From positions 1 through 39,014 of IMG/VR virus record IMGVR_UViG_3300002835_000457: a DNA stretch of 39,014 nucleotides; one strand, written 5' to 3'. This document shows, piece by piece, positions 9,912 through 36,978 of the stretch. The position numbers and the translations under genes were made by a program. Source of the stretch: a virus. Under the pieces are notes generated by a model. The model saw only the letters and a program-made list of their open reading frames with translations, ran no database searches and was not told where the DNA came from. Every line of letters begins with the position of its first letter. Positions within the stretch are counted from its first letter, which is position 1.

Positions 9912-12158
9912 ATGAATCCATCGCAGAATCCCGAAATTGAATCGATTATTGAACAAAGTGTCAAGCTAGCTAAGAGTTTCCGTCATGAATATGTATTAAC
10001 TGAACATTTATTGCTGGCATTGCTGCAACATGATCCATTTAGAAATATTTTGATAAAATTTGGTGCTGATATTGAAAGTTTTGAAAAGGATGTCATAAAC
10101 TATCTCTTGAGTTTGACTGCATTGGTTAGAAAAGGACAGGTAAATCCTAAAAAAACCAATGCACTAGAAAGAACTTTTAACCGAGCACTGACTCAGGTCT
10201 TATTTACTGGTCGAAGAACTGTTACTACCATTGATCTTTATTTGAGTTTAATGGGTGAAACTAATAGTCACACACATTACTTCTTTTTGAAATATGGGAT
10301 AACTAAATTAGAGTTTGTAGAATTCTGTCAAGAAAACTATCAAAATACCTATACGATCAGCGATAAACAGGCCACTGACATACTAAGTGAATACTGTACC
10401 AATCTCAGCAAAATGGCCGAGGAGAATAGGTTAGAACCTATGATCGGTCGTCAAACTGAACTAGACGAAATGATTGCGGTTTTGGCTAGAAAATTCAAAA
10501 GCAACATCCTATTAGTAGGTGACCCAGGTGTTGGTAAAACCAGTATCATTGAGGGTTTGGCACAGCAAATATTCAATGATTCAGTACCTGAATTCTTAAA
10601 GAATCACGAAGTATGGTCATTAGAAATTGGCAATATCTTGGCCGGTAGTAAATACCGAGGAGATTTTGAAGAAAAATTAAAATTAATAATCGCCGCGTTA
10701 GAAGCCAAAAAGAACTGTATATTGTTTATCGACGAGGCTCATACAATGCGTGGTGCTGGATCCGGTAGCAATAGCAGTTTAGACTTTGCTAATATGTTGA
10801 AACCTGCTATTACCAAAGGAACATTTAAAGTAATTGCCAGCACAACTTGGGAAGAATTTTATGAAAGTTTTGAAAAAGACCGTGCCTTAATGCGGCGCTT
10901 TCATAGACTGGCCATCGACGAACCCGATCTATCCACTACTGAACAAATACTCATTGGTGTTAGTGTAAGATTAGAACAGTTTCATAGAGTCAATATTGCC
11001 ACAGAAGCCATACAGGCTTCACTAGAATACAGCCATAGATATTTGCATGACAAAAAGAATCCCGATAAAAGTATTGATTTGTTAGATGCAACCTGTGCAA
11101 GACAAAGGTCCCGTGGCAATACTAATGCTGTGATTACTCGAGATCTTGTCACTGAACAAATCAGCAAGATGACCGGTATAGGTATAGACAATTTAGAAAA
11201 CACTACTAGTGATAAAATTAATAATTTGGAATCGGGAATCAAAGATCGACTTTATGGTCAAGATCATGTTGTCGATCAAGTTTTAGAAAGAATCTATATT
11301 AGTTTTTCAGGGCTAGGCAATGCACAAAAACCAATGGCCAGTTACTTGTTCTTAGGGCCAACCGGAACTGGCAAAACCGAACTAGCAAAATTGCTCAGCG
11401 AACATTTAGATATGAAATTGCTGAAATATGACATGAGTGAATTTCAAGAAAAACATACTGTCAGTAGTTTAATTGGTGCACCACCGGGCTATGTGGGATT
11501 TGAAGATGGTAATGTCGGTGGTGGAAAGTTAATCAGTGATATCAGTAAAAATCCACATGCAGTGATTTTGTTTGATGAAATCGAAAAAGCACATCCTGAT
11601 GTCAGTAATATTCTGTTACAAATCTTAGACGAAGGCACGATTACAGGAAATAATGGTAAAAAAGTCAGTGTAAAGAATTGTATTATTATCATGACCAGTA
11701 ATCTTGGCAGTCAGGACAATGAACTAAACAACATTGGCTTTTCAGTAGATCTGGCCAAAAGCGACAGTGAAGATCGCGCTATGAAAGATTTTTTCAAACC
11801 TGAGCTGAGAAACAGAATTGATCTAGTTTGCAAATTTAAAAAGTTAGATACATTAGCAGTTAGAAAAATTGTTGTTAAATTCGTCAACGAATTGAAAAAA
11901 TCTCTAGACAAACACAGTATCGGTATTACTGTCAAAGAATCAGCAGTTGACTATCTGTCAGAAAAGGGCTATGACAGTAAAATGGGTGCGCGGCCATTAG
12001 CTAGAAAAATTGATGAAATGATTAAGATTCCTATGTCAAGAAAAATCTTGTTTGAAAATCTCCAAAACTGTAATGTTGTCATAGACATTAAAAATGGAGA
12101 AACTGTAATAACCACTAAAGCACGACGGCACCATGTTAAAAATACAGAAAATCAATAA
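9912..12158 (+). CDS. clpA: ClpA-like double AAA+ unfoldase with ClpP-docking loop
   Basis: 748 aa, the size of bacterial ClpA (758). The Clp-N repeat domain (residues 1-150) includes SFRHEYVLTEHLLLALLQ. D1 has Walker A GDPGVGKT (203-210) and Walker B ILFIDEAHTM. D2 has Walker A GPTGTGKT (482-489), Walker B VILFDEIEKAHPD and the arginine-bearing FKPELRNRID. There is no long coiled-coil M domain, so it is ClpA- rather than ClpB-like. The tripeptide I608-G609-F610 lies where ClpA has IGL and ClpX has IGF, the loop that inserts into ClpP. No ClpP is in the window, so a complex with host ClpP is the natural inference. Sigma-70-type promoter upstream; it overlaps the next gene by 26 bases. Confidence 0.92.
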   Translation: MNPSQNPEIESIIEQSVKLAKSFRHEYVLTEHLLLALLQHDPFRNILIKFGADIESFEKDVINYLLSLTALVRKGQVNPKKTNALERTFNRALTQVLFTGRRTVTTIDLYLSLMGETNSHTHYFFLKYGITKLEFVEFCQENYQNTYTISDKQATDILSEYCTNLSKMAEENRLEPMIGRQTELDEMIAVLARKFKSNILLVGDPGVGKTSIIEGLAQQIFNDSVPEFLKNHEVWSLEIGNILAGSKYRGDFEEKLKLIIAALEAKKNCILFIDEAHTMRGAGSGSNSSLDFANMLKPAITKGTFKVIASTTWEEFYESFEKDRALMRRFHRLAIDEPDLSTTEQILIGVSVRLEQFHRVNIATEAIQASLEYSHRYLHDKKNPDKSIDLLDATCARQRSRGNTNAVITRDLVTEQISKMTGIGIDNLENTTSDKINNLESGIKDRLYGQDHVVDQVLERIYISFSGLGNAQKPMASYLFLGPTGTGKTELAKLLSEHLDMKLLKYDMSEFQEKHTVSSLIGAPPGYVGFEDGNVGGGKLISDISKNPHAVILFDEIEKAHPDVSNILLQILDEGTITGNNGKKVSVKNCIIIMTSNLGSQDNELNNIGFSVDLAKSDSEDRAMKDFFKPELRNRIDLVCKFKKLDTLAVRKIVVKFVNELKKSLDKHSIGITVKESAVDYLSEKGYDSKMGARPLARKIDEMIKIPMSRKILFENLQNCNVVIDIKNGETVITTKARRHHVKNTENQ

Positions 12159-15088: not shown

Positions 15089-17134
15089 ATGAATATCAAT
15101 GAACTGGACGCGCTACAACTCAGCGACTACATAAAATTTAACAGTGAATTAAATCCTGTTTTATGGACTAGCGATCAAAAGCTAAGGCCCGAAGTCAGAC
15201 GGGCCTTATTAGCTATCGCTGATGATTTTAAGGAATTTCTTGGTGTTAAAGATATTGGTTTAAAAGATATCACAGTCAGCGGTAGTAATGCAGCTTACAA
15301 TTACACAGATAGCAGCGACATAGATTTACATTTAGTTGTAGATTTACCCGAAGCAGATAGCAGCGAAATTTTTCGCGAGTTATTTGATGCCAAGAAAAAT
15401 CAATACAATGATCAACATGATATTACCATTGGCGGTTATGATGTTGAACTCTATGTTCAAAATGCAAACAAGCCTCATTACAGTCAAGGTATATACAGTT
15501 TGCTGAATGATAAGTGGCAGATTGTTCCTAAAAAAATTAAAACAGAAATTGATGATGACAGTGTAATAAGCAAATATCAAGACCTTGAGCAGAGAATTCT
15601 AAAAGCCATTGATAGCAATGACTTAGACAAGATTACAACCCTGCTGCAGAAAATTAAAACTATGCGCCAAACAGGGCTAGAAAAACATGGCGAATTTGGT
15701 GTTGAAAATCTTACATTTAAATTACTGAGATCGTCGGGTTTGATAAAGCAATTAATAGATGCCAAAAACCGCTTACATGACCAACAGTTAAGTCTCATTG
15801 AGCGAAAAAAGAAATCTAAAAAGAAAAAATTCACCTATGGCTATGCAGGATATTGGTTTCCGGGTTTTAATTTTGGAGATACCGGCAGCGGCGAAGGTGG
15901 CGGAGAAAGTCTTAGCGAAAGTCAAGACAGGAATATTGAGAATTTCGCTGATAAGATAATAAAAATGTTGGGTATAACTCATAGACCCAAATTGATTTTA
16001 CATAATGACCCGGACTGGACAGTTTCAACAGGCAGTTTCGGTCAATATGATCCCGACAAAAATCATTTGCATTTAGCTACCAATGATAGGCACATTCTTG
16101 ATATAATTAGAACACTAGCTCACGAACTTGTTCATTGTCAACAAAGACATCGAGGCCGATTTCCTGATGATGCCGGTCGAACTGGTAGTCCTTACGAAGA
16201 CGAAGCTAATGCCATGGCTGGAAGGATAATGCGTCATTTGGCTGATCAACATCCAGGGTTATTTGATAATGTTTCATTGGAAGAATCTGCTACAGGTTAT
16301 ATTCCACGCAACAAAAAAGAAGCTCAAGATCCAAGATATTCAATGGCTATTACACAGGATATTCAACCGGGACAGGTTGGCAAAGAAGCAAATAAATTGG
16401 CGCTAAACACCGGACCCAATGGTGAACCCGGTCTACTAATGAAAACCAAAAATCTTCGTGAAGGTGCCATTACCAAAATTGATTCCTTGGGTAATCAACA
16501 GCCCACAGGCCCGGAAACACCACCTACTATGCCTGCTGGTACTGTAAGGGTAGATGTCAGTGATGTCTACGATTGGTATAAATTAGGTCAACATATTTCT
16601 AACATGAAAGGACTAGGGCGGCACGACTTCGGCAAGGGTCCTCCCAGTGCTATCATTAGCTTCGGAGACGAAGACACCGAGCACAAATATATAAAAGATT
16701 TAGAAAAAACAGGGTTGACCACCACTGATATTGATCCTAAAGATCCCAATCAACCTAGCAATATACCTCGGCAAAAAACTGACCCAACTTATAATGTCGA
16801 CGAAGACCTTGCTAAAGAAGATCTTGTAAAAAAACTTCAAGGAAAGCTTGATAAATTTAAAGATCAATCAATGGATAAAGATCCTATACAAGAAAATTAC
16901 CATTGGCTAAAACCAGGACAACTAAGAGGCAGTTATACAGACCAAGAACTTAAAAAACTAGGATTTAAACAAAATTCTAAAGGTGCATGGTACATTGAGC
17001 AGTCGAAATGGGCTGAATTAGTCAATAACAAATTAATTAACGAAAAATGGAGTACCAAATATAAAAGATCAATAAACTGTAATAATCCTCGTGGATTCAG
17101 TCAGCGTGCACACTGTCAGGGGCGAAAAAAATGA
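15089..17134 (+). CDS. Modular protein: nucleotidyltransferase + HELVH zincin + C-terminal phage modules
   Basis: 681 aa in about four modules. Residues 1-270 include a Pol-beta-type nucleotidyltransferase (GSNAAYNYTDSSDIDLHL with G65-S66, D77 and D79, then DVELY as third acid). A Lys-rich then Gly-rich linker ends in ESLSE (E277). Residues 280-395 are a metallopeptidase-like domain with H345-E-L-V-H349 and a downstream ligand in EDEANAMAG (E372). SLEE|S (E399) is followed by SATGYIPRNKKEAQDPRYS, a stretch I know from other phage modular proteins, and an RVDVSDVYDWYKLG domain. PIQE|N (E602) is followed by a basic tail with two Cys (NCNNPRGFSQRAHC). The L/I-x-E sites fall between modules and fit prohead-protease cleavage. 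Substrates are unknown. ATGA overlap with the next gene. Confidence 0.78.
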   Translation: MNINELDALQLSDYIKFNSELNPVLWTSDQKLRPEVRRALLAIADDFKEFLGVKDIGLKDITVSGSNAAYNYTDSSDIDLHLVVDLPEADSSEIFRELFDAKKNQYNDQHDITIGGYDVELYVQNANKPHYSQGIYSLLNDKWQIVPKKIKTEIDDDSVISKYQDLEQRILKAIDSNDLDKITTLLQKIKTMRQTGLEKHGEFGVENLTFKLLRSSGLIKQLIDAKNRLHDQQLSLIERKKKSKKKKFTYGYAGYWFPGFNFGDTGSGEGGGESLSESQDRNIENFADKIIKMLGITHRPKLILHNDPDWTVSTGSFGQYDPDKNHLHLATNDRHILDIIRTLAHELVHCQQRHRGRFPDDAGRTGSPYEDEANAMAGRIMRHLADQHPGLFDNVSLEESATGYIPRNKKEAQDPRYSMAITQDIQPGQVGKEANKLALNTGPNGEPGLLMKTKNLREGAITKIDSLGNQQPTGPETPPTMPAGTVRVDVSDVYDWYKLGQHISNMKGLGRHDFGKGPPSAIISFGDEDTEHKYIKDLEKTGLTTTDIDPKDPNQPSNIPRQKTDPTYNVDEDLAKEDLVKKLQGKLDKFKDQSMDKDPIQENYHWLKPGQLRGSYTDQELKKLGFKQNSKGAWYIEQSKWAELVNNKLINEKWSTKYKRSINCNNPRGFSQRAHCQGRKK

Positions 17135-17613
17135 GATGCTATGAATTCATCATTGAAGCACAACTCAGAGTTGATGTTCCCAACGAGGGTTGGTTGGCAG
17201 ATAAAGTTGCCTATGCTAGAAAAAAAGGCCGTGATCGATTCGGTGCTCCCTACTTCGGTGCCACCACTGCCTATATACCCAACGATGAAAATGTAGTTGT
17301 GCCAGTTGATCTACTAAAAAGATTACCCGGTATGCGTAATGAACAACAAAATGTTAGACAGGATGATTTGGCTGCTATTATGAAGATAATGAAAGACACA
17401 GGGCGATTACCTTTAACCAAATCTGGCAAAGAGTATGTTCCATTTATTGTAGTAGCCTACAATGGAGAAGCCTGGGTTAACGAAGGCAATCACCGTATAA
17501 TGGCTGCTGCTCGCTTGGGTTGGGATAGTTTACCCATTGAGCTCAAATATTATGATGGCGGCGAAAGAATTAAAAACGGGCCACTATATCCTGGCAAACT
17601 AGGACTATTATGA
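17131..17613 (+). CDS. Capsid-tag-type protein with ParB/Srx-like domain
   Basis: 160 aa. Residues 1-10 (MRCYEFIIEA) resemble the T4 internal-protein targeting peptide, with I-I-E|A an exact match to the T4 prohead-protease consensus. The rest is a ParB/sulfiredoxin-superfamily domain: VVVPVDLLKRLPGM, a helical part, then VPFIVVAYNGEAWV and the signature E118-G-N-H-R122 with IMAAARLGW. Family members bind or cut nucleic acids or use nucleotides (CTP in ParB); the activity here is not determined. It overlaps the preceding and following genes by four bases each (ATGA), so the block is translationally coupled. Confidence 0.78.
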   Translation: MRCYEFIIEAQLRVDVPNEGWLADKVAYARKKGRDRFGAPYFGATTAYIPNDENVVVPVDLLKRLPGMRNEQQNVRQDDLAAIMKIMKDTGRLPLTKSGKEYVPFIVVAYNGEAWVNEGNHRIMAAARLGWDSLPIELKYYDGGERIKNGPLYPGKLGLL

Positions 17614-18047
17614 GAGCACAGGAATTTGTTGCAGAAATAACTATCTCCGGACCTGACTCTCGAGTAAAATCTTACATCGACCGGGTGTACGCAAAATATC
17701 CACAGACTTGGCAAAACAATCATGTCATGCCATTGGGTGGGACTGGCAACGATCAACAATTTGTCTTGTTTGAATTGGCACCGAATCCAGGTAAGAAAAA
17801 TACAGCGGAGATCAAATGGTTTCAAGCATATCCGCTAAGACAAGGTGTGGGTTCTCGAGCAATGAAAATTCTTCAAGATTTGGCAGCAGAGGATGGTATC
17901 TCGCTAACATTATTTCCCTGGGATCGGGGTCAAGTAAGTCAATCTAAACTAATGAAATTTTACCGACAACACGGATTCCGAGCTGCTCAAAAAGGTTCTA
18001 AAAATTTAGTTTGGGAGCCCGGTCAAGGTGTGGCGGAAGGCAGGTAA
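17610..18047 (+). CDS. Capsid-tag-type GNAT acetyltransferase (1)
   Basis: 145 aa. N-terminal tag MRAQEFVAE with Glu at position 9. The GNAT fold is shown by AEIKWFQAYP (strand 4), the acetyl-CoA loop R77-Q-G-V-G-S82 with AMKILQDLA (motif A), LTLFPWDRG and the motif B KLMKFYRQHGF. It probably acetylates a protein or small molecule of the host. The C-terminus is GQGVAEGR, the same GVAE sequence that separates the domains of the next protein, so a former fusion is conceivable. ATGA overlap with the previous gene; five bases before the next. Confidence 0.85.
   Translation: MRAQEFVAEITISGPDSRVKSYIDRVYAKYPQTWQNNHVMPLGGTGNDQQFVLFELAPNPGKKNTAEIKWFQAYPLRQGVGSRAMKILQDLAAEDGISLTLFPWDRGQVSQSKLMKFYRQHGFRAAQKGSKNLVWEPGQGVAEGR
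18028..18038 (+). repeat. VAE linker repeat, copy 1 (GTGTGGCGGAA)
   Basis: Identical 11-mer at four places. Here it encodes the C-terminal GVAE of GNAT 1 (residues 140-143). Copies 1-3 share 15 bases (AAGGTGTGGCGGAAG). Confidence 0.8.
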
Positions 18048-18050
18048 ATA
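18043..18050 (+). promoter_or_regulatory. Late-promoter-like octamer (GGTAAATA)
   Basis: Contains the stop codon of GNAT 1 and ends two bases before the ATG at 18053. Two mismatches from TATAAATA; may be fortuitous. Confidence 0.25.
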
Positions 18051-18052
18051 AA

Positions 18053-19636
18053 ATGAGGGCGAAAGAATTTACTAATAAACTATACGAAAGTTTAGATAAA
18101 CCATATCCTCTCACTTGGAATTACGATAAAGAAGCACAGGGTGAGATATCTGCTGAAACTGTATTAGATGATGGCACACCATTTATAATAGCATTTTATT
18201 CTAAAACCACACCCGGTGAATACACCGTCGCTTTTAGTAGAAATTATGAGGTCGGAACCACCGATCTAGGTCTAGAATTTAGAGTTTTTGCTACTGCACT
18301 AGACGGCATAAAAACGTTTATAAAAAAACGTTGGCCTATAAGTATAAAATTCATAACAGTAAAAGAAGAAGATCCGTTAGGCAAACGAGATAAGTTGTAT
18401 AAATCGATCATACGTCGAAATGCTGATACTCTTGGTTATCATCTAGAAATCTCTGATCAGCCGCATGTTGTGGTCTATTATTTTAAAAGAATCAATGTCG
18501 GTTCAAAAAAGCAAGGTGTGGCGGAAGACACAGGCGACAAAAATCCACAATGGCTTTACCACGCTACCTATCGTCCATTATTAAAAAGTATTAAAGCACA
18601 CGGTCTAGGCGGAGATCGAGCACAAGCTAAATGGGAGGACAGCAAGCCTGGTGTAGTATATCTTGCTTTAGATCCCAATGTAGCTGAAAGTTATGCTGAA
18701 AGCAGCGATGTAGTGCCCGAAGATTGGCTAGACCAAATTGTAATTCTTAAAATTGCAGCAAGTAAATTAGACAAATCTCGTTTGTTTATTGACCAAAATG
18801 TACAAGACAATCAAGGCGATACACTAGAATATCACGGTGTCATACCTTTTAGCAATATTTCCTTGTATAAGAAAGGTGTGGCGGAAGACATTGACTATCA
18901 ACGCCATTTAAAACTTATAAATGCCCATATGAAAAAAATGGGCTACAGACGGCTAGGGGGTGGTAGGGATGCTCAAGTTTACGCAAAACAAGAAGGCAAT
19001 ATTATAAAAATACTAATCCCCCAAGATGGAAAAACTGTGCGTTCTGCCGAAATCCCTTTCTTAGAATTTTACAAATACTGTCGTGCCAATCAGAAAAACC
19101 CACATCTTCCAAAATTTGGTAAGATACAAGGACAGGATTACGCAGATTTCCATCTAGACGGTGAAAGATTCGTTCAGATTGCCCAAGAACGATTGTCAGA
19201 TATTCCAGCACCCAGCGAATATGATGACATGCTCTTTGACATGATCAATTCTGTAGAAAATAATACACCTTTAGAGCAACAATATCCAAGCTATGAACTA
19301 TTTTACAAAACACTAAAGTCAGTGGCTCAGCGTGGCCGAGAACTTGGTTTTGAAAATGACTTTATAAAGTCCGACGATGATTTTAATATCATGCTACGCG
19401 GTAAAACATTAGTAATAACAGATCCATGGCTTGATGCCTCTCTCAACGAAAGTGTGGCGGAAAACTTTGCTGACGGGCGGAATCCAGGCCGCAAAGGACT
19501 GAGTCGCAGAGTGGGTATACCAAAAAAAGCCACATTGGGTCAACTGGAAAAAATAGCCAAAAGCAGCACAGGTGAGCGTCGCCGAATGGCACAGTGGCAA
19601 CTCAATATGCGTCGAGGACGGAACAAGAAAAAATGA
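18053..19636 (+). CDS. Capsid-tag-type polyprotein: unknown domain + ART-like + kinase-like + basic tail
   Basis: 527 aa. The tag-like start is MRAKEFTNKLYE. Module A (to about 158) is an alpha/beta phage domain (EFRVFATALDGIKTFI) of unknown function. It ends in GVAE (155-158). Module B (159-278) is ADP-ribosyltransferase/KptA-like: WLYHAT (H170), LLKSIKAHGL, GVVYLALDP (Y203). It ends in GVAE (275-278). Module C (279-470) is protein-kinase-like: Gly loop LGGGRDAQVY (301-310), K319 in IIKIL, catalytic-loop analogue FNIML (N445) and D457-P-W in place of DFG; no HRD Asp is obvious. It ends in SVAE (467-470). Module D is a basic tail (RKGLSRRVGIPKK, RRGRNKKK). ATG 18053 is chosen over an upstream frame start because it carries the shared tag. 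Modules may be freed by prohead protease. Confidence 0.78.
   Translation: MRAKEFTNKLYESLDKPYPLTWNYDKEAQGEISAETVLDDGTPFIIAFYSKTTPGEYTVAFSRNYEVGTTDLGLEFRVFATALDGIKTFIKKRWPISIKFITVKEEDPLGKRDKLYKSIIRRNADTLGYHLEISDQPHVVVYYFKRINVGSKKQGVAEDTGDKNPQWLYHATYRPLLKSIKAHGLGGDRAQAKWEDSKPGVVYLALDPNVAESYAESSDVVPEDWLDQIVILKIAASKLDKSRLFIDQNVQDNQGDTLEYHGVIPFSNISLYKKGVAEDIDYQRHLKLINAHMKKMGYRRLGGGRDAQVYAKQEGNIIKILIPQDGKTVRSAEIPFLEFYKYCRANQKNPHLPKFGKIQGQDYADFHLDGERFVQIAQERLSDIPAPSEYDDMLFDMINSVENNTPLEQQYPSYELFYKTLKSVAQRGRELGFENDFIKSDDDFNIMLRGKTLVITDPWLDASLNESVAENFADGRNPGRKGLSRRVGIPKKATLGQLEKIAKSSTGERRRMAQWQLNMRRGRNKKK
18516..18526 (+). repeat. VAE linker repeat, copy 2
   Basis: GTGTGGCGGAA encoding GVAE at the module A/B border of the polyprotein. 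Confidence 0.8.
18876..18886 (+). repeat. VAE linker repeat, copy 3
   Basis: GTGTGGCGGAA encoding GVAE at the module B/C border (ART-like to kinase-like). Confidence 0.8.
19452..19462 (+). repeat. VAE linker repeat, copy 4
   Basis: GTGTGGCGGAA encoding SVAE at the module C/D border (kinase-like to basic tail). Confidence 0.8.
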
Positions 19637-20238
19637 AAGCACGAGAATTCGTATTCGAAAACAACAGTATGGAAATTACCCCTGCCATTGAGTCATTAAT
19701 TGCTCAAGCACAAGACAATGGCAATAAGATGGCCTCCAATCGAAGTTTGAAATATCAACTTTACATTCCTCGTAATACACAATATGCGAAGGAGAGCATA
19801 TCTGTCAAGGAAGGGATTAAACCCCGAGCAAGTATATGGACCAGTACAGCTATACCCACTGGCAAAGATTCGTATACCAGTCAATGGGCAGAATGGTGTC
19901 GAGAAAACATGGCCCAATGGTTAGCACCCAAAGGGCAGCTATATCAGGTAGAAAGTGGTGCCCGAGTGCTGAATATCGGCAGTGATGCGGCAGCAAGAAA
20001 AATAGCCCGTATCTTGGGTCACGAATTGCAGGGATATAGTATCATAGATGATTACCCCTGGGCAAAATTAGGTCAGTTGGTAGATGGCATTAGATACCCT
20101 GCTAGATTAAGTGGTACTTGGGGCAGTGGTCAAAATAATATTCTAATGAATATGTGGGATGTAGAATCTACTGCTTGGTTTAATCGAGATCATCTTAGAC
20201 TCATAGGCGAAGTCAACATCAAAACTCGGGGATTTTAA
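19633..20238 (+). CDS. Capsid-tag-type protein of unknown fold, 201 aa
   Basis: Tag MKAREFVFE with Glu at position 9. The remainder is not recognised with confidence. Features: KPRASIWTSTA, SQWAEWCRENMAQWLAP, LYQVESGARVLNI, ARKIARILGHEL, and a C-terminal NNILMNMWDVESTAWF. The WTST plus W..WC pattern and the final WDVESTAWF recall unnamed phage domains that I suspect are ADP-ribosyltransferase-like, but the R-S-E residues cannot be placed by eye. The ATG at 19633 is preferred to an upstream frame start because of the shared tag and the ATGA overlap with the polyprotein gene. Confidence 0.7.
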   Translation: MKAREFVFENNSMEITPAIESLIAQAQDNGNKMASNRSLKYQLYIPRNTQYAKESISVKEGIKPRASIWTSTAIPTGKDSYTSQWAEWCRENMAQWLAPKGQLYQVESGARVLNIGSDAAARKIARILGHELQGYSIIDDYPWAKLGQLVDGIRYPARLSGTWGSGQNNILMNMWDVESTAWFNRDHLRLIGEVNIKTRGF

Positions 20239-20239
20239 T

Positions 20240-20977
20240 ATGAGAGCACAGGAATTCACATCAACAATCAATGAGATACAACGACGACCAGATGACCCCA
20301 ATGACCTTGACTATGCCAATGTAGACATAGACTCAAAGACTCGGAATCGTATAAAAATGTTGCCCGACAATGATCGATTCGGGTACACCGAAGGCAAGGG
20401 TGTGACCTTTTTCACAGGTGGCGACTACAAAATTGAACTATATGACTTGAAGCCACCCACAGGTGGTGTCAGATTAGTGGGATATTTGGCATTAGCAAAA
20501 TCCAATTTTCCCTTACCTAATGCCTACAGAGTTGCCAATGTCGGACGAGACAGAGAATATCGTGGACTGGGACTAGGACAAACACTCTATATCATTGCTA
20601 TGAAATTATTGGGTATGACCATATTGGCAGATGACACACAGACTGCCAGTGCCAGAAAGATGTGGGAGAGATTGGCAAGAATACCTGGAGTCGAAGTTCG
20701 AGGGTATACAACAGTAGGGACTAGGTCATGGCAAAATCGTGATAGACCTGACGAAATTTATGACTGGGACGATAAACCCATAATCACGTCACTGAGAAGA
20801 GTCGGTGGTCAGGAGCTAGGCGGCGACAATATTTTAACTTATGTAGGATTTCCTGTGACTGGCAATGTGAATCGTAATGAATTAGAATCATTAAATAAAA
20901 GATTGTCAATATACAGTGCTCGTCATCCCGAAGAAGGTGGCACAGACAATGGGCTTTATGCCAGGTGGAGAGGATAA
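20240..20977 (+). CDS. Capsid-tag-type GNAT acetyltransferase (2)
   Basis: 245 aa. Tag-like start MRAQEFTSTINE (Glu at 12). The N-terminal 40 residues after the tag are polar. The GNAT domain shows VRLVGYLALAKS, YRVANVGRDREYRGLGLGQTLY with the acetyl-CoA loop R108-G-L-G-L-G113, IIAMKLLGM and a following helix SARKMWERL. A 70-residue C-terminal extension (GDNILTYVGFPVTGN) follows the GNAT core. Only one base separates it from the previous stop, and its stop overlaps the next start (TAATG). It is not similar enough to GNAT 1 to be a recent duplicate. Confidence 0.82.
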   Translation: MRAQEFTSTINEIQRRPDDPNDLDYANVDIDSKTRNRIKMLPDNDRFGYTEGKGVTFFTGGDYKIELYDLKPPTGGVRLVGYLALAKSNFPLPNAYRVANVGRDREYRGLGLGQTLYIIAMKLLGMTILADDTQTASARKMWERLARIPGVEVRGYTTVGTRSWQNRDRPDEIYDWDDKPIITSLRRVGGQELGGDNILTYVGFPVTGNVNRNELESLNKRLSIYSARHPEEGGTDNGLYARWRG

Positions 20978-21819
20978 TGAAAGCTACCGAATTTTTATCG
21001 GAAGCACCACTAACAGACTATGTTCCTGTGGATTTTGATAAACCCCAGGGACAATTTAAACCTGTTGATAAAAGGCTGATTCAACATCCTGTTACAATGA
21101 AGAAAGTAGAAAAAGTCTTTGCCCGTATACCTTACGATGTCAGACTTTTCTTTATTAATAAAGCAGGGCTGAGAAGTCAGCGAGAAACCGGTGCTCGATC
21201 CGCAGAAGATATAAGAAAAATTCTAGGTAAAGACGCAGAGCAAATATTAAAAAATAGCGAAGACACAATTACCATATTGTTCATTGGTAACTACGGTGCA
21301 GATAAGGTAATGATGACCCCTTGGATTATGGCACATAGATTTGGTCATGCCATACAAGCAGGCACAAGATACAATACAAACAATGATACCAATGCTTGGC
21401 TCGCTGCTGAACAACACTTCTTTAAGGGTATTAATAAATTATTAAAAGATTTCTATGGCATAGAAAAAAATAATATATTCAGTACAAAAATAAACTGGAA
21501 CTTACAAAAAGAATATTCTGCACTTTTTAATGCAATAGGTACGCAACGAAGTAGTAGAACAGGTCAAATTAAACGCCCATACGAATTTTTATATGAATTA
21601 TTTGCACAGTACCTTATCACAGGATCAGTTAAACTCAATCCTTTACCAAAGAAAAAAGATTATGGTCGTAAGGCATGGGGGAGAAGTACAAAAAGTTTGA
21701 ATATGAAACCCGGTAGTGAAGAAGAATCTAAATACACAACAGAAATACTGGCCCATGATCTAGAAATACTGTTTAATGATGTATTATCAAATAGTGTCGG
21801 CAAAATTTTTGTTATGTGA
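20977..21819 (+). CDS. Capsid-tag-type zincin-like protein with altered HExxH (HRFGH)
   Basis: 280 aa from ATG 20977. Tag MKATEFLSE|A with Glu at 9 and an exact L-x-E|A site. The body contains MMTPWIMAHRFGHAIQAG, the position of a metallopeptidase HExxH helix, but the catalytic Glu is Arg (H-R-F-G-H). Further on, RPYEFLYELFAQYLIT has a Glu and Gln where a third ligand would be expected. The fold therefore looks like a zincin whose peptidase activity is lost or changed. The same TPW..AHR.GHA pattern occurs, as I recall, in other phage proteins, so this is not a random mutation. Function unknown; binding rather than cleaving is possible. Confidence 0.75.
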   Translation: MKATEFLSEAPLTDYVPVDFDKPQGQFKPVDKRLIQHPVTMKKVEKVFARIPYDVRLFFINKAGLRSQRETGARSAEDIRKILGKDAEQILKNSEDTITILFIGNYGADKVMMTPWIMAHRFGHAIQAGTRYNTNNDTNAWLAAEQHFFKGINKLLKDFYGIEKNNIFSTKINWNLQKEYSALFNAIGTQRSSRTGQIKRPYEFLYELFAQYLITGSVKLNPLPKKKDYGRKAWGRSTKSLNMKPGSEEESKYTTEILAHDLEILFNDVLSNSVGKIFVM

Positions 21820-21827
21820 ATATCGAT

Positions 21828-21879
21828 ATGGATTTTGTTAATTTAATCATTACTGTTAATGTACATTGCAAAAAATTGC
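21828..21879 (+). repeat. 52-bp direct repeat, left copy
   Basis: 50 of 52 bases identical to 22893-22944 (differences at repeat positions 6 and 31). Flanks the ART-like gene. Confidence 0.9.
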
Positions 21880-21911
21880 CGATGCTGGCGATTTTCGGGA
21901 GCCATAAATGA
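21828..21911 (+). pseudogene. Truncated duplicate of the 22893 gene (27-codon remnant)
   Basis: The first 17 codons (MDFVNLIITVNVHCKKL) repeat the start of the 103-aa gene at 22893 with only two base differences in 52. After that the sequence departs and closes at a TGA (21909-21911) that overlaps the ATG of the ART gene as ATGA. It is either a dead duplicate end or a leader peptide now coupling translation to the next gene. Confidence 0.75.
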
Positions 21912-22882
21912 GAGCGCAAGATTTTTTAGCAGAGTGGAAAAAGCAATATCGTCACATGATGCACGGTACATCGGATGCCTTTCTCAGAGGGATACTAAAA
22001 CAAGGCCTAAAGTTTGACTCGGGATTCCGTAGTTGGACTGGCGGAGCAGAAGGCAGCAATGCTGAATTACCCAGTCTTGGTGGTGTTTATTTTACAGACA
22101 AATTTAGCACTGCCAAAAAAGCTGCTCGGGCTGCAGCCAGTAAACACGGTGGTAGACCAATAATCATTGATGTTTTTGTCACAGCCAATTATGGGTATGC
22201 TGATGAAGATTTGCCTGCTGCAGTGATGATGGATACCACATTAGAATGGATAAAAGATCGCAGACAAGGACGCAATGATCGTCCAGATTCCTGGTACACC
22301 CAACAGATATTTCAAAAGATGCCATCGGGTAGATTTGATAAAAATATCTACAATAACACTATGGAATATGTAAGAGTTTTACAAAAAATTCTCAAGGAAA
22401 AACCGGAACTTGATCCCTTGACCGCAACAGATTATTATAACAAAGAACTTCGTAAAAGAATGTTAGTTAAAGAGCCTGAACTCAAAGCAGCACTAGAAAA
22501 AGTTTCAAAATCAACAAGACCTCGATCGATTCCTAAAGCACCAGAATATCCTGGTCAGTCGACTCTTCCTAAACCCGACGAAGCCAATGTCAGAATTGAG
22601 CGAGACATTGGATTTAGCGGCACAACCAGGATTATTTCTATATATGACATGGAAACCGGCCGACTTCTTTTTAAAGAACCCAATACTCAGTTGCAGCCCG
22701 AGACTCAAAGAATTATTGCAGATATACAGCATTTTGGGCCGAGCCAAACACCCAAGTACCCTACAGGTCATGAACCATGGAACGGCAAAATCACTGACAA
22801 CAGATACAAGCAACAGGCTGAAAAGGAAGCTGCCAATGCTGCTGCCGAACAGGCAAAACAAAATCAACCGACATCAACATGA
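21908..22882 (+). CDS. Capsid-tag-type ADP-ribosyltransferase-like protein
   Basis: 324 aa. Tag MRAQDFLAE with Glu at 9. Residues 16-95 resemble the ART/KptA-type fold: MMHGTSDAFLRGILKQGL (H19), LGGVYFTD (Y61), a helix TAKKAARAAASKHGG and the strand PIIIDVFVT. The pattern parallels module B of the polyprotein (YHAT..., GVVYLALDP). The second half is helical and charged, then Pro-rich and Ala/Gln-rich, probably disordered. T4 Alt is a known capsid-packaged ART that is injected with DNA and modifies host RNA polymerase, so a similar role is attractive. The gene is flanked by the 52-bp direct repeats and may be a recent insertion. Confidence 0.75.
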   Translation: MRAQDFLAEWKKQYRHMMHGTSDAFLRGILKQGLKFDSGFRSWTGGAEGSNAELPSLGGVYFTDKFSTAKKAARAAASKHGGRPIIIDVFVTANYGYADEDLPAAVMMDTTLEWIKDRRQGRNDRPDSWYTQQIFQKMPSGRFDKNIYNNTMEYVRVLQKILKEKPELDPLTATDYYNKELRKRMLVKEPELKAALEKVSKSTRPRSIPKAPEYPGQSTLPKPDEANVRIERDIGFSGTTRIISIYDMETGRLLFKEPNTQLQPETQRIIADIQHFGPSQTPKYPTGHEPWNGKITDNRYKQQAEKEAANAAAEQAKQNQPTST

Positions 22883-23204: not shown

Positions 23205-23364
23205 TGCCGCAGTGACCTCTTCGGGCAATATTGCGGTTGTTTCGGGGCCAATAACTAAAGAACCCATTAGAAGAACTCAGGAAATATCCAAAACAGGTAA
23301 ATATGCTAATACACCAAATCTTAATGTTTTTGGTCAAAAAGGGGATAAAAGTGTTAGCAGATGA
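23179..23364 (+). CDS. Small hypothetical protein, 61 aa
   Basis: AAGGA (23168-23172) six bases before the ATG supports translation. Polar, Lys/Ser/Thr-rich, no transmembrane or catalytic feature; TSSGNIAVVSGPITKEPIRR is the only patterned stretch. It overlaps the previous gene by 26 bases and the Dps gene by 14. Function unknown. Confidence 0.65.
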   Translation: MQKNLKESDAAVTSSGNIAVVSGPITKEPIRRTQEISKTGKYANTPNLNVFGQKGDKSVSR

Positions 23365-23791
23365 TCTCAAAGTTTTATTAGCAACACAATATGCTTATAC
23401 AATCAAAGCACAATTGTTTCATTGGAATGTTGAAGGTTCAGACTTTGGCCAATTGCATGATTTTTTCGGAAAAATCTACAATGAAGTTTATGGTTCTATT
23501 GATACCAACGCCGAACATATAAGAACTTTAGGAGAATATACTCCAGGCAGTTTTGAGAGATTTTTAGAACTCAGTCAAGTTCCGGGTCAACAGAAAATTC
23601 CCCGTGCAAGACTAATGATAGAAGAATTACTAAACGATACGCAAACTGTAATAGATTTGCTGAATAGATGTTTTGAAAGTGCCGAATCGGAAAATCAACA
23701 GGGTATAGCAAACTTTATTGCAGAAAGACTGGATGCCATGGCCAAACATCGTTGGATGTTACAGAGCTTCCTCAAAACCGAAAGAGAGTAA
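23351..23791 (+). CDS. dps: Dps-family ferritin-like DNA-protection protein
   Basis: 146 aa from a GTG at 23351, with AAAAGGGG six bases before it. The frame extends upstream, but that part is not Dps-like. Signature: FHWNVEG..FGQLHDFFGKIYNEV. The ferroxidase residues H24, H36, D51 and E55 have exactly the spacing of E. coli Dps H51, H63, D78 and E82; the extra acid at E. coli D67 is Gly here. Dps oxidises Fe(II) with peroxide and shields DNA; the DNA-binding Lys-rich N-tail is missing, so iron or peroxide control is more likely than DNA coating. An unusual gene in a T4-like phage. Confidence 0.88.
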   Translation: MLADDLKVLLATQYAYTIKAQLFHWNVEGSDFGQLHDFFGKIYNEVYGSIDTNAEHIRTLGEYTPGSFERFLELSQVPGQQKIPRARLMIEELLNDTQTVIDLLNRCFESAESENQQGIANFIAERLDAMAKHRWMLQSFLKTERE

Positions 23792-29130: not shown

Positions 29131-29868
29131 ATGACAATTAATGTCAGTGACCGTCGGCGTAAAAATGTTCTGTTACCCTGCGACCATGGGCTAATGATCA
29201 TTAATAGATTTGATAGAAATGAACTAGGTGTAGGGCAAGCAGCATTCTTATTAGATCATGGCAATAGCTGTACCAAAGAAGCAGAAATTTGTTACAGTTA
29301 TTTGTCTAACATAGATCAACCAGTGATTTTGGATATTGGTGCTAATATCGGTACCTTTACCAGTTGGCTATGCAAGATATTCCCCGACAGTAAAATCTAC
29401 TGTTTTGAACCACAGAGATTAGTATACCAAATGCTCTGTGGAAACATTGCCATAAACAACTGGGAAAACTGCTATACTTATAATATGGGCGTGTCGGATG
29501 TCAATGACATTATTCCTGTGACCGAACCTGACTACTATAGCGAGCAAGACTTTGGCACTATTAGTTTGAATAATCCGAAGATAGATCATAGACCTGCGAA
29601 TTTCATCGAAGTAATCACATTAGATAAATTTGTACAGAAATTTTATATCAATAAAATAGATTTCATTAAAATTGATGTAGAGGGAATGGAATTGTCTGTG
29701 TTGACCGGAGCCGAAGAAACGCTAAAGAAATTTCGACCTGCTATTTTTATCGAATACAGCAACTACAAACAAAATACACTAGAACACATAGTTGAATTAT
29801 TGGGACAAGAAAATTGGCGATACTTTGTCTACGATAATAATGTCCTGGTATTACCTAATTCTAAATAA
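29131..29868 (+). CDS. FkbM-family methyltransferase
   Basis: 245 aa from ATG 29131 (a TTG codon directly precedes it). SAM-binding motif I is VILDIGANIGTFTSWL, the acidic end of strand 2 is IYCFEPQRLVYQML, and IDFIKIDVEGMELSVLTGAEE is the FkbM signature with DVEG. RPAIFIEYS closes the core. FkbM enzymes O-methylate sugars or other hydroxyls; here the substrate could be a phage-borne glycan or a modified base. It lies beside the TGT-like gene and several glycosyltransferases. Three bases after the gp45 stop. Confidence 0.87.
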   Translation: MTINVSDRRRKNVLLPCDHGLMIINRFDRNELGVGQAAFLLDHGNSCTKEAEICYSYLSNIDQPVILDIGANIGTFTSWLCKIFPDSKIYCFEPQRLVYQMLCGNIAINNWENCYTYNMGVSDVNDIIPVTEPDYYSEQDFGTISLNNPKIDHRPANFIEVITLDKFVQKFYINKIDFIKIDVEGMELSVLTGAEETLKKFRPAIFIEYSNYKQNTLEHIVELLGQENWRYFVYDNNVLVLPNSK

Positions 29869-29872
29869 GTCT

Positions 29873-31534
29873 ATGCAAGATAACTTTACAAATAAACAAT
29901 TAGACAGCAATGGTCTCAGTAAATGGGCAATCTTTTTGCCAGCTATATCGGGATTTTATGCAACCTTTATAGGTCGTCAAAGAGTAGAAAATTATGTTGA
30001 TCCTGCAAGATTTCCTGCAGGGATCACCGATATGGAACAACTGAACTGGATTAATAGTCAAAAATCGATGTTTCCATATCAATGGAGTCTGTACAGTGCA
30101 GGCCATGCCAATCTCAATTTAAATAAACCAGATCCCAGTGAGGACATGGTAAGGCAGCGCGAACCTGGGTCATTTATGTTAGGCGACAGTGGAGGTTTCC
30201 AAATTGCCAAAGGAAGATGGCCAGGCGAATGGCGTGATCCAAATAGTGCAGAAGTGGCGAACCATTTGTCACAGTTAAAAAGTCAAGGGGTGATTACCAA
30301 AACAATAAAAAACAAAACAAAAGTCATAGACCCTGTGCAGAATTATCTAAAACTAATTGCAGAAACAGATAAAAAAAGAAAAAGTGTTTTGACCTGGCTA
30401 GACAGCATTGCTGATTATAGCATGACATTAGATATTCCAACTTGGGTTATCCATGATCGAGCTGCTGGTCAAGCCTGCGGCATTAGTACCTTGAAGGAAG
30501 CTGTAGATGCTACTCGTTACAATAACGACTACTTTATAAAAAATCGCCGAGGCTGGCAAAACGGCGGTACACGAATACTAAATGTATTACAGGGTGACGG
30601 CCACGACAGTTCCGATCAATGGTATGAAACTATGAAGGAGTATTGTGATCCCAAAATCTATCCCGAAAGACATTTCGACGGATGGGCTATGGGCGGTCAG
30701 AATATGTGCGATGTACACTTGGTTCTGAAAAGACTGGTCAATATTATCTATGACGGACTTCTTAGACCTGGACTACATGACTGGATGCATTTTCTCGGTA
30801 CCAGCAAATTAGAATGGGCCTGCTTACTAACAGATATCCAAAAAGCAGTTAGACGATATCACAATCCCGGATTTACAATTAGTTTTGATTGTGCCAGTCC
30901 GTTCCTGGCCACTGCCAATGGTCAACTCTATATACACAATGACTGCCCGCCCAGATCCAAATGGGTATACAGGATGGAGCCAACTCTAGATAATAAAAGT
31001 TATAAAAATGACACAAGGTCATTTAGAGATACGGTAATACAAGATGGTATACACACTCATTTTGATGATAGTCCAATCAGTGCAATACTGAAAGCCAAGG
31101 ATATTTGTGTGTATGGACCCAACGACCGAAATAAAATAGGTAAAATAGGTAATACCAGTTGGGACAGTTTTAGCTATGCATTACTAATGGCTCATAATGT
31201 TTGGCATCATATCAACGCAGTTCAAACAGCTAATATGCTCTATGAGCAAGGACAAATGCCAATGATGTTAGCTGGACGAACTGATAACAAATATGATTTC
31301 GGACGAATTGTTGATGATATTTTTAGCCAAAATACTCGACAAAAAAGTCTAGATCGCATAGAATACTATCAATCATGTTTCGATCAAATCATTGGTACAA
31401 GAGGTTTTACTGGAAAGAATCTCATGCGACCAAACCCAACACTTTTCGATACTTTCTTTGAAGAAGAAAATTCACAACCAGAATCTGACGAACTAGATTC
31501 TACCAACTTGGAAATTTTAGAACAACATGAATAG
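29873..31534 (+). CDS. dpdA: TGT-superfamily transglycosylase (DpdA-like 7-deazaguanine DNA/tRNA transferase)
   Basis: 553 aa from ATG 29873, after the FkbM stop. The tRNA-guanine transglycosylase core is clear: MLGDSGGFQIAKG (D105, as in TGT TDSGGFQ), NVLQGDGHD (Q240-G241), HFDGWAMGG (D269), and FDCASPFLATANGQLY with D339 in the place of the TGT nucleophile (FDCV-P-TR). It is longer than TGT (about 380 aa), and the TGT CxCxxC zinc site is not seen. Phage DpdA proteins are TGT relatives that insert a 7-deazaguanine base into DNA, and the FolE, QueD-like and YhhQ-like genes downstream support that role. A tRNA-acting TGT is the alternative. ATGAATAG overlap with the next gene. Confidence 0.82.
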   Translation: MQDNFTNKQLDSNGLSKWAIFLPAISGFYATFIGRQRVENYVDPARFPAGITDMEQLNWINSQKSMFPYQWSLYSAGHANLNLNKPDPSEDMVRQREPGSFMLGDSGGFQIAKGRWPGEWRDPNSAEVANHLSQLKSQGVITKTIKNKTKVIDPVQNYLKLIAETDKKRKSVLTWLDSIADYSMTLDIPTWVIHDRAAGQACGISTLKEAVDATRYNNDYFIKNRRGWQNGGTRILNVLQGDGHDSSDQWYETMKEYCDPKIYPERHFDGWAMGGQNMCDVHLVLKRLVNIIYDGLLRPGLHDWMHFLGTSKLEWACLLTDIQKAVRRYHNPGFTISFDCASPFLATANGQLYIHNDCPPRSKWVYRMEPTLDNKSYKNDTRSFRDTVIQDGIHTHFDDSPISAILKAKDICVYGPNDRNKIGKIGNTSWDSFSYALLMAHNVWHHINAVQTANMLYEQGQMPMMLAGRTDNKYDFGRIVDDIFSQNTRQKSLDRIEYYQSCFDQIIGTRGFTGKNLMRPNPTLFDTFFEEENSQPESDELDSTNLEILEQHE

Positions 31535-34265: not shown

Positions 34266-34949
34266 ATGAGTTTCGACAAAACTAAAGTAGATCCTGTATT
34301 GGGTCGACAAATTCGTCAACATCTAACTAAAATGGGCGTAGAAACACCCATTATTGAAGCCGCACTTGCTGTAGAGAATAAAAAGAAAATCGACATTCTA
34401 GAACGAGCATTTCGTGAAATTTGGCAAACAGTTGGCATGGATCTCAATGATGACAGTTTGGCAGAAACACCAAACCGCATGGCCAAAATGTATATAAATG
34501 AAATTTATTTTGGTCTAAAAGAAGAAAATTTTCCAAAATGCACTACTGTTGAAAACAAAATGAGCTACGACGAAATGATCGTAGAACGCAATGTCAATGT
34601 TCAAAGTAACTGCGAACATCATGGCGTAGTCATTGATGGATTAGCTACAGTAGCTTATATTCCTAACAAAAAGGTTTTAGGACTAAGCAAGATCAATCGT
34701 ATTGTAGAATACTTTAGCAAACGGCCGCAGATTCAAGAGCGGTTAACTGAGCAGATTTACCATGCATTACAGTATATTCTCAACACAGATAATATTGCTG
34801 TTGTAATTGATGCCACACACTATTGTGTACGCAGTCGTGGCGTAGAAGATACAGGAAGTTCAACTGTGACCAGCAAATTAGGCGGGGTATTTAAGTCAGA
34901 TAATTCTGTTCGTTTGGAATTTATGAATATAGTAAATAATTGTCGATAA
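34266..34949 (+). CDS. folE: GTP cyclohydrolase I
   Basis: 227 aa. Converts GTP to dihydroneopterin triphosphate, the first step to folates and to 7-deazaguanines. The signature is complete: AETPNRMAKMY, NVQSNCEHHGVVIDG with the zinc Cys and His, VAYIPNKKVLGLSKINRIVEYF, KRPQIQERLTEQI, and the second zinc Cys in HYCVRSRG. Length equals E. coli FolE (222). AAGGAG before the ATG. In this context (TGT-like, QueD-like and YhhQ-like genes) it most probably feeds a modified-base pathway rather than folate. QueE and QueC are not in the window. Confidence 0.95.
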   Translation: MSFDKTKVDPVLGRQIRQHLTKMGVETPIIEAALAVENKKKIDILERAFREIWQTVGMDLNDDSLAETPNRMAKMYINEIYFGLKEENFPKCTTVENKMSYDEMIVERNVNVQSNCEHHGVVIDGLATVAYIPNKKVLGLSKINRIVEYFSKRPQIQERLTEQIYHALQYILNTDNIAVVIDATHYCVRSRGVEDTGSSTVTSKLGGVFKSDNSVRLEFMNIVNNCR

Positions 34950-36282: not shown

Positions 36283-36978
36283 ATGACAACTTCTTTACAT
36301 GATAAAATCTTCAATGATCCTTCAATGACATTAGACCACAAGACTCTATATTGGATAATTGGTCTCTCGGCAGCTCTAATTATGGCAATGACAGTGGCAG
36401 ATTTTGCTGCAGCCAAGTTTTTAGATTTTGGTTGGGTGGTTACTCCTGCAGGTGCATTGTTATTTGCAGTGGTCTTTGTGACACGGGATATGTTGCATAA
36501 ACTTGCTGGTGCACAGATAACCAAAAATGTTATTTTAATTGGTGTGGTGCTTAACTTAGCAGTAGCAGCATTTATGTACATAATGACCTTTTTGCCAGCG
36601 CCGGCATTTCGCCCTAGTGTAAACTTTGATGCGGTATTTCGAATGAGCTTGGGTATTGTATTAGGTTCGGAAATTGCCACTGTATTAAGCCAATGGGTAA
36701 ACACATATGTTTATCAGTGGATGTGGGAAAAGGATTACAGCAGCTGGGCACGAACATTTTTTAGTAATTTGTTTAGTTTGCCAGTGGATGCAGTTTTCTT
36801 TGTAATTTTAGCTTTTATTGTATTTCCCACTATTCTTGGCGGATCGGTTATGAATTTTGATACTGCGATAGCCAGAATTGTTTCAGGATCTACCTTATTT
36901 AAACTGGCAATTATCTTAGCGTTGACACCATTGGTCAGTTTGGCTCCCACTAGGGAAGAAGCCAGAGATCTACGCTGA
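36283..36978 (+). CDS. yhhQ: YhhQ/VUT-family queuosine-precursor transporter
   Basis: 231 aa with about six membrane helices (LYWIIGLSAALIMAMTVADF, ILIGVVLNLAVAAFMYIMTF, PVDAVFFVILAFIVFPTIL, LFKLAIILALTPLVSL). The VUT signature is seen in AAAKFLDFGWVVTPAGALLF and VVFVTRDMLHKLAG. E. coli YhhQ imports the 7-deazaguanines preQ0 and preQ1. A phage copy would let the infected cell take up precursor for the DpdA-like enzyme, which could compensate for missing QueE/QueC. CAAGGAAA ribosome site precedes the ATG. Confidence 0.85.
   Translation: MTTSLHDKIFNDPSMTLDHKTLYWIIGLSAALIMAMTVADFAAAKFLDFGWVVTPAGALLFAVVFVTRDMLHKLAGAQITKNVILIGVVLNLAVAAFMYIMTFLPAPAFRPSVNFDAVFRMSLGIVLGSEIATVLSQWVNTYVYQWMWEKDYSSWARTFFSNLFSLPVDAVFFVILAFIVFPTILGGSVMNFDTAIARIVSGSTLFKLAIILALTPLVSLAPTREEARDLR

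Follow-up and report, generated by a model that had tools for sequence, protein, structure and literature searches.

Within a 39 kb fragment of a large phage recovered by environmental metagenomics (IMG/VR record IMGVR_UViG_3300002835_000457; 39,014 nucleotides, hereafter the window, in whose positions all coordinates are given), seven plus-strand genes in succession (17131-22882) each open with a short tag, M[KR]xx[ED]F...[ILV]xE, placed in front of bodies that are unrelated to one another (Table 1; genes are named by their first position, and a slash marks a candidate cut). Residue 5 is Glu or Asp and residue 6 is Phe in all seven tags, and the Glu that ends the tag stands at residue 9 in five genes and at residue 12 in two. 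These starts, N-termini and invariant positions had been listed in the original prediction, which was made from the sequence by eye, and re-reading the sequence reproduced all of them. Mean identity among the seven proteins is 68% over residues 1-6 and 8% over residues 14-40.

In a six-frame translation of the window, the pattern M[KR].{1,4}[ED]F.{2,6}E matched the seven tag starts only, and a slightly stricter version gave 0 or 1 match in each of 40 first-order Markov resamples of the window, so that a chance origin of the seven tags was rejected. The codons had been said to differ between the genes, with the similarity held at the protein level, and this holds across the group: 40 distinct tags from the window and its relatives are encoded by 40 distinct 27-mers. 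Because all of them differ in DNA, conservation of the tag as a translation signal or a nucleotide repeat was likewise rejected.

A close parallel to these starts is found in phage T4, where, in the database record, the internal proteins IPII and IPIII begin MKTYQEFIAE/A and IPI begins MKTFKEFTST...ITE/A, that is, MKTFKEFTSTTTPVSTITE/A. The tag of 20240, MRAQEFTSTINE/I, resembles that of IPI, and the nine-residue tags resemble those of IPII and IPIII minus one residue. In Vibrio phage VH7D, homologues of 18053 open with MKFSEYQNELTE/A and VKFSEYQRLNE/S. Truncations of T4 IPIII showed that its first 10 residues suffice to package foreign proteins, and the T4 prohead protease gp21 cuts after L/I-x-E (PMC9026906). 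The original prediction held that the tags end in such a T4-type site; this is strictly so in five of the seven (IIE, LYE, INE, LSE and LAE), the tags of 17610 and 19633 having V before x-E, and it is V that most often stands at the joints inside proteins of this phage group.

The presence of the tag in homologues from related phages had been set beforehand as a check on the prediction, and on running it homologues were found to carry the tag. A scan with gene 15089, which lies upstream of the seven, recovered 46 related viral contigs with 60 tagged open reading frames (ORFs), 42 of them distinct and every one on the same strand as the query gene. Judged by DNA polymerase, the nearest cultured phages are two jumbo phages, Sinorhizobium phage Phosso (48%) and Agrobacterium phage Atu_ph07 (45%). 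Each of four large related genomes has tags in its counterpart of the cluster, and two of the four carry them at a second site as well; the tag pattern was present at 22 of 3122 Met codons near ORF starts in four related genomes, compared with 4 of 5657 internal Met. A scan for the exact MRAxEFIxE pattern in DNA had at least 120 matches, where about two would be expected by chance (a hand estimate); these gave at least 138 distinct tagged proteins, in which the tags precede at least 29 unrelated body clusters; among the matches listed, 126 of 138 have an ATG no more than 30 codons from the upstream stop. The largest tagged family, 73 of the 138 among the matches listed, consists of small proteins ending in FKGY[PK][RK], and corresponds to the second tag site, where two such proteins are encoded in tandem, a conserved arrangement, in a late block near the large terminase (G004:263121-263878 and G011:102342-103108). 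Two further starts, MKTFAQYLTES at G004:260443 in the late block and MKTLQDYLTES at Atu_ph07:85148, are very close to T4 MKTYQEFIAEA.

For the bodies behind the tags, searches of Pfam and PHROG produced no model above the curated cut-off for any of the seven genes. The original prediction had named ParB/Srx-like, GNAT, ART-like, kinase-like and altered zincin domains, and these assignments are weak to moderate: 17131 matched an Srx/ParB fold, 21908 had a PARP-like match below the cut-off, the GNAT and kinase matches were sub-threshold, and 20977 has a zincin-like motif in altered form. The Srx/ParB fold match of 17131 has an E-value of 2e-3; in its AlphaFold2 model the tag is disordered (residues 1-16, pLDDT <50), and the best Foldseek matches are sulfiredoxin, SbnI and ParB-N. 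No homologue of 19633 was present among the related loci compared. The Prevotella Lak megaphages MK250020-MK250028 (~235 kb) encode a module related to the ART-like one in 18053 (E 5e-8).

Sites of the same kind recur inside the proteins. In 18053, QGVAE/D at residue 158, KGVAE/D at residue 278 and ESVAE/N at residue 470 fall between the D1, ART-like, kinase-like and NFADG modules, in that order; these three further sites, and the QGVAE/GR-stop that ends 17610, went unnoticed in the original prediction. The joints of 15089 read LEE/SATG, VDE/D and INE/KWST, and this gene, though untagged, is probably part of the same system; its zincin motif is intact (HELVH), whereas that of 20977 is altered (HRFGH). 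Effector-type modules are thus combined in one polypeptide, four in 18053 and several in 15089, with other orders in relatives, where hydrophobic-x-Glu sites part modules that recur in different arrangements. The motif [QKRE]GVAE is concentrated in the cluster, which makes up ~6% of the ORF length and has 10 of 12 copies, and is nearly absent elsewhere.

The same domains are found behind either kind of site. Two relatives carry the ParB-like body of 17131 by itself after a tag, and in other places it forms part of fusions, following LTE/S, MTE/S, VTE/G, LNE/A or VAE/G; NFADG, a module that had no match in cultured phages, is preceded by MRAQEFVNE, MRAREFITE, KQGVAE, LTHLNE and others, and KWSxKYK by MRAKEFISE, MRANEFVTE, QGVAE, LDE and others (for example, MRAKEFISE/KWSKKYK and QGVAE/EWSKKYK). 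Since identical domains follow either, the tag's end and the joints within proteins are one kind of site. Of 119 distinct contexts of the domains tested, 106 have [ILVM]xE directly before the domain, whether it belongs to a tag at the start or to a linker inside the protein, compared with 2-18 for most control motifs and 28 for [GSTA]xE, which overlaps [ILVM]xE. Homology breakpoints fall no more than 8 aa from [ILV]xE followed by a small residue in 44% of cases versus 15% in the null, and versions of the motif with K, Q or D in place of E gave no signal; a further control, Ex[ILV] before a small residue, was also elevated (z 5.6), probably from overlap with EGVA, and, as the sequences are related by descent, the z-values overstate independence and it is the control motifs that offer a fair comparison.

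Table 1. Genes, tags and linker repeats of the cassette and the gene upstream of it (window positions; a slash marks the candidate cut)
Feature	Position	Strand	Basis
Untagged upstream polyprotein: nucleotidyltransferase-like, zincin HELVH (16121-16135), shuffled modules	15089..17134	+	Pfam, PHROG, module comparison
160-aa tagged protein, sulfiredoxin/ParB-N-like body	17131..17613	+	PHROG ParB-like E 8e-4; AlphaFold2/Foldseek
Tag MRCYEFIIE/A	17131..17157	+	Sequence, six-frame pattern scan
145-aa tagged protein, GNAT-like body, C-terminal QGVAE/GR	17610..18047	+	Pfam Acetyltransf_7 E 0.014, below cut-off
Tag MRAQEFVAE/I	17610..17636	+	Sequence, six-frame pattern scan
Linker repeat GGTGTGGCGGAA (QGVAE/GR), end of gene 17610	18027..18038	+	Sequence
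527-aa tagged polyprotein, four modules: D1 (phrog_6387), ART-like, kinase-like, NFADG basic	18053..19636	+	PHROG, module comparison
Tag MRAKEFTNKLYE/S	18053..18088	+	Sequence, six-frame pattern scan; homologues tagged too
Linker repeat GGTGTGGCGGAA (QGVAE/D), joint D1 to ART-like	18515..18526	+	Sequence
Linker repeat GGTGTGGCGGAA (KGVAE/D), joint ART-like to kinase-like	18875..18886	+	Sequence
Linker repeat AGTGTGGCGGAA (ESVAE/N), joint kinase-like to NFADG	19451..19462	+	Sequence
201-aa tagged protein, no recognised fold	19633..20238	+	phrog_8582 E 1e-6, family without assigned function
Tag MKAREFVFE/N	19633..19659	+	Sequence, six-frame pattern scan
245-aa tagged protein, GNAT-like stretch	20240..20977	+	Pfam E 0.11; phrog_15502 E 5e-9
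Tag MRAQEFTSTINE/I, T4 IPI-like (MKTFKEFTSTTTPVSTITE/A)	20240..20275	+	Sequence, six-frame pattern scan; T4 record
Tagged protein, zincin-like motif, HExxH altered to HRFGH (21334-21348)	20977..21819	+	Sequence
Tag MKATEFLSE/A	20977..21003	+	Sequence, six-frame pattern scan
324-aa tagged protein, PARP/ART-like body	21908..22882	+	Pfam PARP E 5.8e-5, below cut-off
Tag MRAQDFLAE/W	21908..21934	+	Sequence, six-frame pattern scan

A search of related genomes for a gp21-type prohead protease had been proposed with the original prediction, and such a protease was found in most large contigs that have the tag. The gp21 family PF03420 scores above the cut-off in 7 of 17 relatives, with gp22 and gp23 adjoining, and, of 10 further contigs longer than 180 kb with tags or linkers, 9 encode a gp21-type protease. 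Prohead protease genes lie, for example, at G004:224562-225188 and Atu_ph07:164585-165217. At the position that in T4 gp23 reads FLTE/A, the major capsid proteins of the relatives have YLKE/NASAGST, LLAE/SSAGTT, PLME/NATAGAT or MLRE/SATAGAT. Two tagged proteins fuse the tag to this same capsid arm, as MRAHEFLKE/NANAGTTSAGSMATV (NANAGTTSAG) and MRAKEFMIKE/TASAGATSAGNIATV (TASAGATSAG), by which the end of the tag is tied to the position that is the gp21 cut in T4. Near the C-terminus of Atu_ph07 coding sequence (CDS) 53, ITE/TSSAGSTGAGNVAT is capsid-arm-like as well. Tags or joints set directly on sequence resembling the mature N-terminal arm of the major capsid protein (E/NANAGTTSAGSMATV) were noted at L010:18387, L252:280-504 and the C-terminus of CDS 53 (L206); carried on tagged proteins, such sequence might anchor cargo to the shell.

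An analogous array is present in the cultured phage Atu_ph07, where eleven consecutive genes (39484-50592; CDS 53-63 by our own count of annotated genes) encode bodies with a YRG motif, ten of them opening with M[RK]W..L.E (MRWEQLTE, MKWHQLTE) and the last with MRLFQLLE. One of these genes adds a zeta/polynucleotide-kinase-like domain and two copies of D1 behind VTE/, LTE/ and LNE/, and another encodes a GNAT-like domain followed by ITE/ and a YRG unit. The array lies inside the block CDS 31-76, of which 29 proteins, nearly all without assigned function, were found in virions (PMC6102473). The position of the array within a block of virion proteins is, by analogy, the nearest experimental hint for packaging.

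Given the T4-like starts, the unrelated bodies, the gp21 proteases of relatives and the interchange of tag, joint and capsid junction, the tag-and-cleavage half of the original prediction is well supported at the level of sequence comparison. We consider it likely that the cassette encodes head-targeted cargo, partly in the form of polyproteins whose joints are all cut by the prohead protease, and that this cargo is probably injected. The 9-12 residue T4-type capsid-targeting tag would bring each precursor into the prohead core, where the gp21-type prohead protease of the phage would cut after hydrophobic-x-Glu and remove the tag, and the same protease would divide polyproteins such as 18053 into their domains by cutting at the joints. 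Once free, the ART-like, GNAT-like, kinase-like and ParB/Srx-like domains would remain in the mature head and most likely be injected with the DNA, acting on the host early in infection. Head packaging, cleavage, injection and domain activity are all features that we infer from sequence.

Several observations weigh against this interpretation. The 39 kb window contains no head genes, so that the phage's own prohead protease is not seen. The published T4 rule has L or I before x-E, and V is frequent in this phage group. Domain assignments of the tagged proteins are mostly sub-threshold, and the structure model of full-length 18053 was poor (mean pLDDT 54) and was not used. The count of virion proteins for Atu_ph07 refers to the block CDS 31-76 as a whole. 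No T4-type late promoter motif was found before the cassette, nor was the motif enriched before tagged genes in general (2 of 320, versus 54 of 3200 other genes).

The tagged proteins could alternatively be components of the prohead core or scaffold, targeted and cut in the same way but serving head assembly, and then leaving the head or staying in it as fillers, instead of being injected effectors. T4 IPIII affects head assembly and capsid-targeting sequence (CTS) peptides bind the core (PMC9026906), and the commonest tagged family is the tandem pair of the late block; the bodies in the cassette, however, are enzyme-like, vary between phages and recombine, as is usual for conflict effectors but not for scaffold, and we consider this alternative improbable. 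A different protease might also cut the sites, for instance the zincin of the polyprotein 15089, with the tag marking only assembly into a complex. Metallopeptidase autoprocessing has been proposed for some of the polyvalent proteins (PMC5512222), and 15089 does have a zincin motif, but hydrophobic-x-Glu is the gp21 rule, the capsid protein has the same junction and some proteins join a tag to the capsid arm, all of which makes cleavage by such an enzyme very unlikely.

Many of the internal joints are also a repeat in DNA. The linker [QK]GVAE/[GDNA] is encoded by a 15-17 bp in-frame repeat, of which GGTGTGGCGGAA is present in 30 of 41 GVAE sites, and it uses GCG, the rarest Ala codon in the tagged genes of the window (9 of 139). 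At least 120 viral contigs contain the 17-mer CAAGGTGTGGCGGAAGG, often more than once, and among the matches listed it is read as Q-G-V-A-E-G in 163 of 163 cases. Among 120 listed loci brought up by the repeat alone, tags are present in 56, with 89 of 90 sharing its strand. A scan of 257 Gb of genomes gave 70 matches to the 17-mer, in all frames and scattered over them in bacteria, near the chance estimate of ~30, and a host origin was rejected on the comparison with the single frame of the viral matches. Near-copies of the linker DNA numbered 420 in frame and 2 out of frame; in the former, 8 of 313 substitutions fell on base 2 of the V codon and bases 1-2 of the E codon, where 63 would be expected if changes were even. 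The A codon and the third bases are free to change, and V turns into M, L or I. This pattern shows selection on hydrophobic-x-Glu ([VMLI]xE). That the GVAE joints are nothing but a recombination repeat spread by exchange, without a role for a protease and with the tags serving a separate function, is the least probable of the alternatives and was rejected as a full account, real as the near-invariant repeat is, since its variants keep [VMLI]xE and change elsewhere and joints without the repeat (LNE/A, LTE/S, VTE/G, MTE/S) conform to this rule in front of one and the same domain, as do the tags.

The proposal that the GVAE repeat encodes a cut site is thus supported by its sequence variation; that it is also used as a recombination joint is a guess. 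A modular cargo system, in which the in-frame repeat CAAGGTGTGGCGGAAGG is both recombination joint and prohead-protease site, so that any two modules could be linked in frame through exchange at the repeat and yet come apart as free effectors in the head, is offered tentatively, and we place it slightly below even chances.

Other genes of the window were noted in passing. Directly downstream of the cassette (23303-23791) is a Ferritin/Dps-like gene (Pfam Ferritin, 5e-21), with a similar protein in the same place in the related genome G004 (74602), and upstream (9912-12158) lies a ClpB/ClpA-type AAA+ chaperone (Clp_N, AAA_2, ClpB_D2-small). GTP cyclohydrolase I (34266-34949; Pfam 2e-60), a Vut_1/YhhQ-type transporter (36283-36978; 2e-27) and a gene of 580 aa (29792-31534), transglycosylase-like by eye and without a Pfam match, possibly constitute a 7-deazaguanine DNA modification pathway.

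If the cassette does encode head-targeted cargo, the short tag and the joint rule would list the injected cargo of many uncultured jumbo phages, most of it without known function, straight from sequence, and T4-type capsid targeting would have become an open-ended way of loading cargo, cleavable polyproteins included. This would bear on host takeover in the first minutes of infection and on phage heads as carriers of proteins, and the Atu_ph07 array offers a cultured phage in which the system is testable.

According to the original prediction, such a cassette is not known to have been treated as a single system. No such description was found among the open-access papers searched, and what appears to be new is the arrangement of unrelated effectors in a row under one short tag and the polyproteins whose prohead-protease joints lie on a dispersed in-frame repeat; the general ideas, namely CTS for loading varied cargo, polyvalent injected proteins, head-packaged ARTs and the targeting N-terminus of the P1 Dar system, are already published. 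The polyvalent proteins (Iyer et al. 2017, PMC5512222) are similar in being multidomain, in combining ART, ParB-like, kinase and zincin domains (domain types with weak to moderate matches in the cassette, none of them above a curated cut-off for the seven genes) and in being proposed to be packaged and injected, but the accessible part of their description mentions neither a short targeting tag nor prohead-protease joint sites.

The Dar system of phage P1 (DarA, DarB, DdrB) likewise comprises several head-packaged, injected proteins, in which the first 30 residues of DarB send a reporter to the capsid and the prohead protease Pro cuts DarA (PMC9024508, PMC12810830). It belongs to a different head lineage with a different protease, and the accessible parts of the two reports describe no common short tag or polyprotein joints; no family match of the cassette proteins named DarA, DarB or DdrB, although no search aimed at P1 was made. 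The ejection proteins of phiKZ and SPN3US share the giant phage setting, the many internal proteins and a prohead protease acting at x-x-Glu, but have propeptides mostly longer than 100 residues in place of a shared tag of 9-12 residues, and comprise ejection proteins and RNA polymerase, not a cassette of small enzymes (PMC5694885). There is a close likeness also to T4, whose IPI, IPII, IPIII and Alt carry a short M-[KR]-x-x-(x)-E-F peptide ending in hydrophobic-x-Glu before unrelated bodies, whose Alt is also a packaged ART, and whose protease family is present in relatives of the window phage; the cassette differs from T4 in its seven genes in a row, its polyproteins with joint sites, the frequent V before x-E and the shuffling of modules through the in-frame linker repeat.

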